From Oscillospiraceae bacterium (lineage in GTDB: Bacteria; Bacillota; Clostridia; Oscillospirales; Oscillospiraceae): a DNA stretch of 64,000 bases. This document shows, piece by piece, positions 4,865-55,246 of the stretch (position 1 is its first letter; each line of letters opens with the position of its first letter). The translations under genes and the position numbers were made by a program. A model generated the notes under the pieces. It was given only the letters and a program-made list of their open reading frames with translations. It did no database searches and was not told the origin of the DNA. The stretch covers positions 1-64,000 of the forward strand of contig JAEEZZ010000025.1 in the NCBI GenBank assembly GCA_016292255.1. The letters run 5' to 3'.

Positions 4865-4965
4865 AAATATGAAACTATGAAAATATGAAAATATTTCGGA
4901 GTTTTTCAAATTGCAATTTGAAAAACGCATTCATAGCCTCATAGTTTCATAGTTTCATAGTTCAG
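4861..4965. repeat. SSR-armed palindromic repeat (copy A)
   Basis: Left arm ATGAAAAT ATGAAACT ATGAAAAT ATGAAAAT; perfect 26-bp palindrome GTTTTTCAAATTGCAATTTGAAAAAC at 4901-4926; right arm is the inverted equivalent (AGCCTCAT AGTTTCAT AGTTTCAT AGTT). Confidence 0.9.
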
Positions 4966-8059: not shown

Positions 8060-8060
8060 G

Positions 8061-8103
8061 CGATACGGATATGGGCGGCGTTGTGCCGCCCATATCTGTA
8101 TCG
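8061..8103. repeat. Large hairpin immediately after infB stop (left boundary of 4HB element)
   Basis: CGATACGGATATGGGCGGC-GTTGT-GCCGCCCATATCTGTATCG, 19-bp arms with one mismatch; no T-tract after it. Confidence 0.75.
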
Positions 8104-8190
8104 CATGAAGTATTGCTGACGCGATATGAAGTATGCTCCGCATATGAAGTACGCAGGGCGTATGAAGTATCGCTTCGCAATATGATTTCG
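8104..8190 (+). repeat. Left micro-hairpin array (ATGAAG-[hairpin])n
   Basis: ATGAAGTA(T) at 8105, 8126, 8144, 8162 and degenerate ATGATTTC at 8182 (18-21 nt period); spacers are mini-hairpins, e.g. TATGC-TCC-GCATA and TACGC-AGG-GCGTA. Confidence 0.85.
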
Positions 8191-8207
8191 GCGTGAGAGG
8201 AACGGAA

Positions 8208-8576
8208 ATGAGAGAAGATAAGCTGTCGGTTTTATCCATGCGTTTTTCAGTGGAGATTTTCCGACTGACGCAATGGCTGCAGAGCAGAAAGGAATACATC
8301 GTTTCCAACCAGCTTGGACGCAGTGGGCTTTCCATTGGCGCAAACATTCGGGAAGCGCAATACGCCCACAGCAAGCCGGATTTTATCGCAAAGCTGCAAA
8401 TCGCGTTGAAGGAAGCCAATGAATCCGGGTATTGGCTTGATCTGCTTCATGAGACAAACCTGCTCTCTGACGAAAACTACAAGCATCTTTCCGGCGCCTG
8501 CGGAGAGCTGCGGGCCATCTTGATCCATTCCATCAAAACCGCGAAGGCAAATGTGAATCATAAAGAATCCAGCTAA
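8208..8576 (+). CDS. Four-helix-bundle protein, S23 / 23S-rRNA intervening-sequence protein family
   Basis: SNQLGRSGLSIGANIREAQYAHSKPDFIAKLQIALKEANESGYWLDLLHETNLL matches the family signature (QLxRSGxSIGANxxEAxxAxSxxDFxxKLxIAxKEAxExxYWLxLL). Confidence 0.92.
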   Translation: MREDKLSVLSMRFSVEIFRLTQWLQSRKEYIVSNQLGRSGLSIGANIREAQYAHSKPDFIAKLQIALKEANESGYWLDLLHETNLLSDENYKHLSGACGELRAILIHSIKTAKANVNHKESS

Positions 8577-8587
8577 TTGAACGTCAA

Positions 8588-8665
8588 TGTGCGAAGCATA
8601 CTTCATGTCGAAGACACTTCATATGCGAAGCACACTTCATATCTCCAACGGAGATACTTCATTCC
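8588..8665 (-). repeat. Right micro-hairpin array, inverted relative to the left array
   Basis: On the minus strand ATGAAGTAT-CTCC-GTT-GGAGAT, ATGAAGTGTGC-TTC-GCAT, ATGAAGTGTC-TTC-GACATGAAGTAT. Confidence 0.85.
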
Positions 8666-8687
8666 TGACATAAAAGGAGGCTTTACC

Positions 8688-9176
8688 ATGCCCTCAAATC
8701 GAATTGGCAGAATCAACGAGGAGATCCAGCGGGAGCTGTCTGACCTGCTGCGGACGGTGAAGGATCCCCGGGTGCAGAAGACGATGGTCTCCGTGACCCG
8801 GGTGGACACCACATCCGATCTGCGCTACGCCAAGGTCTTCGTCTCCGTCTATGACAAAGAACAGAGCAAGGAAGTCATGAAGGGGCTCAAGGCCGCGGGC
8901 GGCTACCTGCGCCATGAGCTGGCCAACCGGCTGAGTCTCCGCTACACGCCGGAGCTGGTGTGGACGGAGGATCACTCCATCACCTACGGCGCCCGGATCC
9001 TGGACATCCTCTCCACCCTGGACATCCCCAAGGACGAGGAGGAATCCCCTGTATGGGGCGGCGTCCACGACGCCCCGAGCTTTCCGCAGTCGGAAAGCTC
9101 CGGGATATCAGAACCGTCTGCCCCTGCGGAGAACGACGCGGAAGGGACATCTTTGGAAGGCGAGGAAGAACAGTGA
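8688..9176 (+). CDS. rbfA: 30S ribosome-binding factor RbfA
   Basis: RIGRINEEIQRELSDLLRTVKDPRVQKTMVSVTRVDTTSDLRYAKVFVSV; extended acidic C-terminus. Confidence 0.95.
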   Translation: MPSNRIGRINEEIQRELSDLLRTVKDPRVQKTMVSVTRVDTTSDLRYAKVFVSVYDKEQSKEVMKGLKAAGGYLRHELANRLSLRYTPELVWTEDHSITYGARILDILSTLDIPKDEEESPVWGGVHDAPSFPQSESSGISEPSAPAENDAEGTSLEGEEEQ

Positions 9177-10183: not shown

Positions 10184-10281
10184 ACGAAAAACAAATAACG
10201 AAAAATGAAAAACAATTTGAAATCCGTCGCGAAGCGACACCTCAGTTTTTCGTTCTGCCTTTTTCGTTTTTCGTTTTCCCA
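10184..10281. repeat. SSR-armed inverted repeat with a different core
   Basis: Left arm AACGAAAAACAAATAACGAAAAATGAAAAAC; core AATTTGAAATCCGTCGCGAAGCGACACCTCAG; right arm TTTTTCGTTCTGCCTTTTTCGTTTTTCGTTTTCC. Confidence 0.8.
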
Positions 10282-10308: not shown

Positions 10309-11196
10309 ATGCCGAACGGAATACTGATCGTAGACAAGCCCGCGGGCTGGACGTCTCAGGACGTGGCGGCCAAGCTGCGGGGGGTCTATCATGAAAAACG
10401 GGTGGGCCACGGGGGCACCCTGGATCCCATGGCCACCGGGGTGCTGCCCATCTTCCTGGGCCGGGCCACCCGGGCCGTGCCCTTCTTCGAGCACGCCGAC
10501 AAGGTCTATGAGGCCGTGCTGCAGCTGGGCCTGGTCACCGACACCCAGGACAGCACCGGCCGGGTGCTGGAGGAGCATCCGGTTGACATAACGCAAGATC
10601 AGCTGGAGGCCGTCCTGCCCCGCTTCCGGGGGGAGATCCGGCAGATCCCGCCCATGTACTCCGCCGTGAAGGTAAACGGGCAGAAGCTCTACGCCCTGGC
10701 CCGGAAGGGCCAGGAGGTGGAACGGGAGCCGCGGGAGGTTCATATTTTTGAGTTGACGCTCCTTGATCGGGATAACGCTCAATTCTCAATTCTCAATTCT
10801 CAATTCGCCCTGCGCGTCCACTGCTCCAAGGGTACCTACGTTCGCACCCTGTGCCACGACATCGGCGCGGCCCTGGGCTGCGGGGGCTGCATGGCGGCCC
10901 TGCGGCGGACCCGGGCGGGGCGCTACGGCATCCGGCAGGCCCACCCCCTGGACGAGATCCTGGCGGATCCGGACCCGGAACGCTTCCTGCTGCCCATTGA
11001 CAGTCTCTTTGCCGACCGGCCCCGCTGCACCATCAACGAGGCGGGGGAGAAAAAGCTCCGCAACGGCGCCAGCCTCCGCACCGGCAAGCTGGCCGACGGG
11101 GAATACCGGGTCTACGGCCCCGGTGGGGACTTCCTGGCCCTCTGCGCCGTAAGCCGGGGAGAGCTCAGCACGATCAAGAGCTTTTTTGAGGTTTGA
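10309..11196 (+). CDS. truB: tRNA pseudouridine(55) synthase TruB
   Basis: GILIVDKPAGWTSQDVAAKLRG, VGHGGTLDPMATGVLPIFLGRATR and CSKGTYVRTLCHDIG motifs. Confidence 0.97.
   Translation: MPNGILIVDKPAGWTSQDVAAKLRGVYHEKRVGHGGTLDPMATGVLPIFLGRATRAVPFFEHADKVYEAVLQLGLVTDTQDSTGRVLEEHPVDITQDQLEAVLPRFRGEIRQIPPMYSAVKVNGQKLYALARKGQEVEREPREVHIFELTLLDRDNAQFSILNSQFALRVHCSKGTYVRTLCHDIGAALGCGGCMAALRRTRAGRYGIRQAHPLDEILADPDPERFLLPIDSLFADRPRCTINEAGEKKLRNGASLRTGKLADGEYRVYGPGGDFLALCAVSRGELSTIKSFFEV
10779..10806. repeat. TCAATTC heptamer array embedded in truB
   Basis: TCAATTC TCAATTC TCAATTC TCAATTC, translated in frame as AQFSILNSQF. Confidence 0.8.
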
Positions 11197-20732: not shown

Positions 20733-20944
20733 GTGCGTTTTCTCCTTTTTTTGTTTTTTGACTGCAAAGGCTCTGCCGTCTTTGGGGAGACGCAAACGCC
20801 CTCCCTGCGGTCATCAACCGGTACCGATGCAGGCATCGGCCCCGGCGGACCGCCCCGGAGCTCGCGGCGGCGACATTGCGTTGGGTCAGTCTTCCGGCTC
20901 ATGGCGGAACGGACGGACCTTCTCGGGGTGAGACAGCTTTCCGT

Positions 20945-20994
20945 GGCGCACCGGTGTGCGCCGATTGCCGTGGCGCACCGGTGTGCGCCGCTAC
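20945..20994 (+). repeat. Two tandem copies of the GGCGCACCGGTGTGCGCC hairpin repeat
   Basis: CCGTGGCGCACCGGTGTGCGCCGATTG CCGTGGCGCACCGGTGTGCGCCGCTAC. Confidence 0.85.
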
Positions 20995-21237
20995 GAAAAA
21001 CTGTCTGTAATCCCAATGGTCTGTTCCCGCTTTGCGGCAAGCGGTCAGTCCGGTCAAAAATGCCATCTACGGCCACGGTCTGGCGCAGGTTTTCGACCTG
21101 CTTCCTGATTAAGTGCTGGGCACGCCCGACTTTGCAGAGGACATTATAACAAGTCCCCACATTTTTGTCAACAAAGCGCCGTGCATATTTCCGCGCCGGA
21201 CACGTATGCTGTACAAACAGATCCGGGAGGGACAAAT

Positions 21238-30696: not shown

Positions 30697-30719
30697 AGTG
30701 CTCCTTTCAGTCGCAATGA

Positions 30720-30957
30720 AGTATGCCTTGGGGCATGTGAAGTATCGCCTGTCGGCGCTATGAAGTATCTTCTTCTAAGATATGAAGTATCCGCTTCGCG
30801 TATATTTTTAAAGCAATACAGGTACAGGAGCTAATCTTTCCCTCTGCGTCAAATATGGATCAGCCATACTTCATAAGCGGAGCGTCTTCACGCGGCGCAG
30901 CCGTACTTCATATTTGCGCAAGCAAATACTTCATTTGCGAAGCATCCCTACTCCTTC
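30720..30957. repeat. ORF-less relative of the 4HB-associated micro-hairpin inverted arrays
   Basis: ATGAAGTAT units with self-complementary spacers (ATGCC-TTGG-GGCAT, TATCTT-CTTCT-AAGATA); after ~75 nt of non-repeat sequence, inverted units (ATACTTCAT, GTACTTCATATTTGCGCAAGCAAATACTTCAT). Confidence 0.85.
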
Positions 30958-54994: not shown

Positions 54995-55056
54995 GTTTCT
55001 GTCTCCTCTGTTTAATAAAAATCCCGACGAACGCACGCCGCCGGAATTCAAAGGAG

Positions 55057-55158
55057 CAGACACCCTTTTCCTACGACGGTATGATCCGTATCAGGTTCAC
55101 GGGTGAGAGCGCCATTCTCGCTCAGTCTCAGCCGGATCGGTCCGACTCCCCGAAGAGC
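55057..55158 (-). ncRNA. TPP riboswitch
   Basis: Minus strand GGGGAGTCGGACCGATCCGGCTGAGACTGAG...CACCCGTGAACCTGATACGGATCATACCGTCGTAGGAA: THI-box signatures (GCTGAGA, CCTGAT..GGAT.ATACC, CGTAGG). Confidence 0.95.
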
Positions 55159-55246
55159 GTCCATATTGTACCGCGAAAGTGCGGAAAAGTCAAGTGGGAG
55201 ACGCGGGGTATTTTGCATTTGCGCCGGCGGCCGGGGTGCATCCCGT

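Follow-up and report, generated by a model that had tools for sequence, protein, structure and literature searches.

An inserted four-helix-bundle gene with inverted hairpin arrays between infB and rbfA: candidate coding member of a dispersed and probably mobile element family

Introduction

In a 64,000-nt stretch of an Oscillospiraceae genome (contig JAEEZZ010000025.1; hereafter the window), a small gene for a four-helix-bundle protein lies between infB and rbfA with arrays of short repeats on both sides. How did this gene come to be there, and what connects it to the repeats that surround it? Four-helix proteins of the PF05635/S23 type are common and of unknown function, and heptamer (STRR) arrays, although known for decades, have had no owner assigned to them. 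The related elements described here, found across many phyla, tie this long-orphan protein family to repeat arrays with no known owner. Should every four-helix gene prove to supply the trans-factor for the array motif beside it, the function of S23 proteins and the ownership of the arrays become testable together.

Results and Discussion

Structure and boundaries of the element

The element occupied positions 8105-8662 on the forward strand (558 bp, with the first ATGAAGT and the last ACTTCAT as its outermost heads), its ends being set by the arrays and by comparison with the empty infB-rbfA alleles of congeners. The left array (8105-8184, forward strand) consisted of four units, each an ATGAAGT head with a mini-hairpin, with heads at 8105, 8126, 8144 and 8162 (spacing 21, 18 and 18). 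The right array (8588-8662, reverse strand) consisted of four inverted units with ACTTCAT heads at 8600, 8616, 8634 and 8656 (spacing 16, 18 and 22). A short palindrome followed or preceded each head. Between the arrays lay the four-helix-bundle gene (8208-8576, forward strand, 122 aa), with infB (stop codon 8057-8059) and rbfA (ATG at 8688) as its neighbours. A preliminary description, made from the sequence alone, had claimed a 122-aa four-helix ORF at these coordinates, arrays that were direct on the left and inverted on the right, and a single unit formed by both. The ORF held in its coordinates and its matches to PF05635 and TIGR02436, the arrays held with a head spacing of 16-22 nt, and the unit held as 8105-8662, with dispersed ORF-less copies sharing its arms.

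A long hairpin directly after infB (8060-8104, forward strand) was considered as part of the element and ruled out; because it is also present in the empty alleles of two relatives (G003 and G007), it is a host feature of the infB operon outside the element. Arrays of 6-mers facing an inverted array gave four matches in the window and none in five block shuffles. When 8060-8687 was folded as RNA, the left and right arms paired around the ORF (z -8.1, 20 shuffles). The GC content was 48.8% for the ORF, compared with 62.5% for rbfA and 61.3% for infB, and 43-45% for the arrays. TTA and TCA codons had been taken to suggest a foreign origin, a weak argument given that they accounted for 2 of 123 codons in the ORF, with rbfA having 2 of 163 and infB 2 of 806, though the GC difference does exist. 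An Rfam search of the window returned two riboswitches and nothing else, namely the cobalamin (20867-21144) and TPP (55051-55162) riboswitches, both on the reverse strand. Searches against defence families (PADLOC) and phage families (PHROGs) gave no match.

The encoded protein

The ORF belongs to the S23/23S rRNA IVP family, as both its profile scores and its four-helix fold fit. It matched PF05635 with E=3.6e-26 (91.9 bits against a curated cut-off of 33.8), its sole Pfam match and with no transposase domain, and TIGR02436 with E=2.3e-29 (101.8 bits against a cut-off of 24). The AF2 model (pLDDT 95) resembled 2rld_B (TM 0.87) and 2gsc_B (TM 0.80), with weaker fold matches to the DGR Avd structures 4dwl and 8ub7. 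The family assignment in the preliminary description was thus upheld by the profiles, and the Avd kinship as this weaker likeness of fold. Avd is a pentameric four-helix bundle, and the relatives 2rld and 2gsc were crystallised with five chains. Residues Q35, N46 and E49 were invariant across 96 four-helix sequences, and E72 and S42 nearly so. The dN/dS was 0.09-0.14 between those pairs of filled infB-rbfA sites for which dS could be computed, and the protein is therefore maintained by purifying selection. It is not known to have any catalytic motif or catalytic activity.

Presence and absence among congeners

The infB-rbfA interval was compared in 20 genomes of the genus, including the window's own (G000). 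The gene and its arrays were present in five (G000, G004, G006, G008 and G011), and the site was empty in seven (G001, G003, G007, G015, G017, G020 and G022). Remnants were found in four, with an internal deletion in G010, G012 and G016 and a single unit left in G002. Three others (G005, G018 and G021) carried a different, ORF-less array, and the interval was unresolved in G014. The coexistence of empty and filled sites among congeners demonstrated that the four-helix unit is an insertion, as the preliminary description had claimed. In an rbfA tree (~350 nt), filled and empty sites were interspersed, which does not separate loss from repeated insertion. Alignment of the relatives, proposed beforehand as a check, thus yielded empty sites and defined ends; the expected target-site duplication was not seen, none being clear at the two sites compared (infB-rbfA and 30716-30934), though the flanks had diverged.

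Dispersed copies without the ORF

The genome of the window contained 98 pairs of ATGAAGT units. Most of them lay in elements built of four units, then a short core, then another four in inverted orientation, with ATGAAGT...ACTTCAT as the exact ends. The spacers between heads varied in sequence while keeping their self-complementarity: stems averaged 4.70 bp across 115 distinct spacers, whereas shuffling the halves gave 3.30 bp (sd 0.10). One ORF-less copy lay in the window at 30716-30934 (no strand assigned); it was common to G000 and G006, whereas at least 14 congeners had an orthologous gap without it. In G005, G011 and G013 this spot likewise held elements of that family, G011 having two in tandem. 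The folding of an ORF-less copy gave z -6.2 as RNA and -6.9 as DNA. The array elements were intergenic, often adjoining start codons or lying within operons.

Among other genomes with the gene at the infB site, ATGAAGT pairs numbered 128 in G006, 48 in G004 and 25 in G011. No pairs occurred in nine congeners, including G008, in which the head has changed. Pairs were also present without a detected infB-site gene in G021 (51) and G007, in a set of mostly draft genomes. A reversed-pattern control for these counts was rejected, as ATGAAGTAT contains ATGAAGT in reverse order and the null is thereby invalid; genomes of other genera served as the control and gave 0-3 matches.

Two further ORF-less fold-back arrays were present in the window. 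One, at 4868-4959 in the gap after a nusA-like ORF, carried the ATGAAAC motif of a four-helix locus of the same genome (G000:C137). The other, at 10186-10272 upstream of a truB-like ORF, carried the GAAAAAC/CGAAAAA repeats of a further locus (G000:C79). Within the truB-like ORF itself (~10755-10785), heptamer-like AATTCTC repeats appeared to lie in frame (translation ...AQFSILNSQF...).

The motif travels with the protein

The element at the infB site of G008 had the head ATGAAGC instead of ATGAAGT. That genome contained 45 ATGAAGC matches, nearly all with array-type spacers (about 45 dispersed pairs), and no ATGAAGT pairs; G000 was the reverse, with no ATGAAGC pairs. Across 96 four-helix loci, protein similarity was correlated with motif (Mantel r 0.345; 0 of 2000 permutations as high). 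Motif sharing reached a mean cosine of 0.42 for non-syntenic pairs of at least 80% protein identity (n=16) and was ~0.02 below 50% identity. Syntenic pairs were removed on blastn evidence alone, and a common ancestry of the site is possible for some of those kept. Similar proteins with the same motif also occupied different loci in different families. Motif and protein are therefore linked across these loci, though the coupling is not strict. ATGAAAC arrays occurred in all six genomes with a fetched gene of the ATGAAAC type and also in 7 of the 17 (mostly drafts) without a detected gene of that type, so strict one-to-one pairing of gene and motif fails for this motif; G015 and G020, where no four-helix gene was found, were among these seven. 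The earlier suggestion that the protein recognises the arrays has only this co-variation as indirect support, and binding to DNA or RNA is inferred.

Occurrence at other loci and in other phyla

All 12 four-helix genes of the window's genome had short repeat arrays nearby, judged by eye, with a motif peculiar to each locus. In a flank test, the upstream flank was locally aligned with the reverse complement of the downstream flank and the score compared with permuted pairings. Near flanks of 92 four-helix loci of the order scored a mean of 22.85 against 12.54 for permuted pairs (z 28.1), and those of 78 loci across phyla scored 22.27 against 13.04 (z 26.7). In 20,000 permutations the observed score was never reached in either set. 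Far-flank controls were far weaker (z 3.3 for the order, 7.3 across phyla), with some excess remaining. About half of the order-level loci did not score above the 95th percentile of mismatched pairs. At many loci, including several of these low scorers, both arms lay upstream of the ORF without bracketing it, so bracketing is one of two layouts. Inner hairpins of the TTCAAATTGCCATTTGAA (left) and ATTCGCAGAAT (right) types recurred beside arrays of different motifs (L016, L127, L138, L090 and others).

The same layout with other motifs does occur across phyla. On named plasmids, inverted heptamer arrays were visible by eye at 8 of 10 four-helix genes. In 150 kb of Nostoc plasmid sequence, picked for containing four-helix genes and scanned blind to gene positions, there was a four-helix gene inside each of the three inverted-array pairs whose enclosed stretch measured 390-402 nt. 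When the same AATTCGC arrays were paired differently, the enclosed lengths were 89, 631 and 1176 nt; the pair around 89 nt was ORF-less and had the motif of the adjacent gene-bearing element. The idea of a gene-array unit would have been refuted if all relatives had carried the gene with no empty allele, or if four-helix genes elsewhere had shown no association with such arrays. Neither was the case, as empty alleles exist and the association of four-helix genes with inverted arrays is strong at other loci too.

On a Pseudanabaena galeata plasmid (L312), a four-helix gene with inverted AAAAGCT arrays lay between cas6 and cas4. This placement may account for the reported link of the 23S rRNA IVP to CRISPR.

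Proposed mechanism

We favour, with moderate confidence, the reading that the segment 8105-8662 is one copy, the coding one, of an element that is dispersed and probably mobile, with its four-helix protein acting as trans-factor for the motif of its own arrays; the mobility, the recognition and the chemistry are all inferences. In this view, a four-helix multimer would bind the repeated heads of its own arms, perhaps with one head per subunit. The substrate may be single-stranded DNA or RNA, in which left heads are paired with right heads and the mini-hairpins protrude. The protein would act in trans on coding and non-coding copies alike, promoting their copying or insertion, possibly with the assistance of host nucleases and polymerases. 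In transcripts, the arms are predicted to zip into a stem with the ORF in its loop, and we propose that RNase III could therefore cut the element out of the mRNA, by analogy with rRNA IVSs. Such excision would limit damage within operons such as infB-rbfA. A trans-factor role, if true, would also explain four-helix genes inside unrelated operons, such as the cas6-cas4 locus above. Support for the mobile reading rests on comparative sequence data, while movement, binding and RNA processing remain inferences. Arrays in genomes without a detected matching gene count against the trans-factor reading, with the caveat that these are mostly drafts. So do the lack of a known catalytic motif, the excess in far flanks (z 7.3), the missing target-site duplication, the many loci with both arms upstream and the low flank scores of about half of the order-level loci.

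A bolder reading, toward which we lean slightly less than away, is that these elements form a mobile class spanning phyla. Here a four-helix protein that is not a transposase would read its own heads, each family having its own motif, and would cause coding and non-coding copies alike to spread, its mechanism differing from that of known transposases. Cyanobacterial STRR heptamers, along with many orphan intergenic repeats, would have been produced by this class.

Alternative explanations

The main rival, which remains possible, is that the arrays are moved by another enzyme (an HUH/Y1 transposase, an RT or group II intron machinery) and that the four-helix gene is a passenger or accessory in one of many array elements. 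It is favoured by the lack of known catalytic activity in the protein, by arrays in genomes without a matching gene, and by the fold relative Avd, which is an accessory factor of an RT. Against it, neither an RT nor a Y1 transposase tracked the arrays as a common partner across the draft congeners: G011 had its 25 ATGAAGT pairs with neither, and G006 its 128 with no Y1 match. Moreover, the Nostoc inverted-array pairs of ~400 nt enclosed four-helix genes only, and the motif follows the four-helix protein.

Domesticated regulation, in which the protein is an RNA- or DNA-binding regulator, the dispersed arrays are operator or UTR sites and movement is ancient or incidental, would fit the purifying selection, the strong RNA folding and the position of elements between genes, often beside start codons or in operons. 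We consider it unlikely, as the patchy presence and absence at two sites between close species, the decaying remnants and the tandem copy in G011 resemble element turnover rather than conserved operators, and proteins that are alike and share a motif are encoded at different loci in different families. Least likely is that local slippage and fold-back repair make the arrays, with four-helix genes merely tolerating or marking the sites and having no trans relation to them. Short tandem repeats that differ per locus and the absence of a target-site duplication would suit this reading; it leaves unexplained the 4+4 layout with covarying hairpins, the many dispersed copies of one motif, the motif switch in G008 and the motif-protein correlation at non-syntenic loci.

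Comparison with known systems

The best reading of the units of arrays and four-helix genes is an IVS- and REPIN-like element class. IVSs of 23S rRNA that encode S23/IVP proteins, as in Coxiella, have inverted ends that pair into a long stem whose loop contains the ORF; they are patchy and are regarded as selfish (PMC4990558). The present element shares their protein family, inverted ends that form a stem around the ORF and a patchy distribution. It differs in lying outside rRNA genes, in arms that are arrays of heads with mini-hairpins or of heptamers, and in having dispersed ORF-less copies and a locus-specific motif. REPIN/RAYT systems (REPtrons) comprise a coding locus flanked by short tagged palindromes and dispersed non-coding copies, and are genome-specific (PMC3733652, PMC3116915). 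Genome-specific families of non-coding copies with the palindromic motif of the coding copy are common to both. However, RAYTs are HUH tyrosine transposases, whereas the present gene encodes a four-helix bundle without any match to a transposase domain, the heads are not GTAG/CGTC, and each arm has four units compared with single REPs.

Cyanobacterial STRR heptamers and the TAACTGA repeats of Beggiatoaceae are intergenic tandem heptamer arrays (PMC4679880), and four-helix genes on plasmids of Nostoc, Pseudanabaena and Planktothrix have such arrays at their flanks. Four-helix, S23 or IVP proteins go unmentioned in the Beggiatoaceae paper, and no protein assigned to STRRs was found in the open-access literature searched. 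The DGR protein Avd is alike in fold (4dwl, 8ub7), with a sequence identity of only ~15% and, at this locus, no RT or template/variable repeat beside the gene; the immediate neighbours were infB and rbfA, and RT matches in the window's genome lay on other contigs. The open-access literature searched yielded no account connecting S23/IVP proteins with arrays, with subscription journals and preprints outside that search. The protein family, IVSs, REPINs and STRRs were already known; what appears to be new is the joining of four-helix/IVP genes to arrays, and there is a real chance that they form a class of their own.
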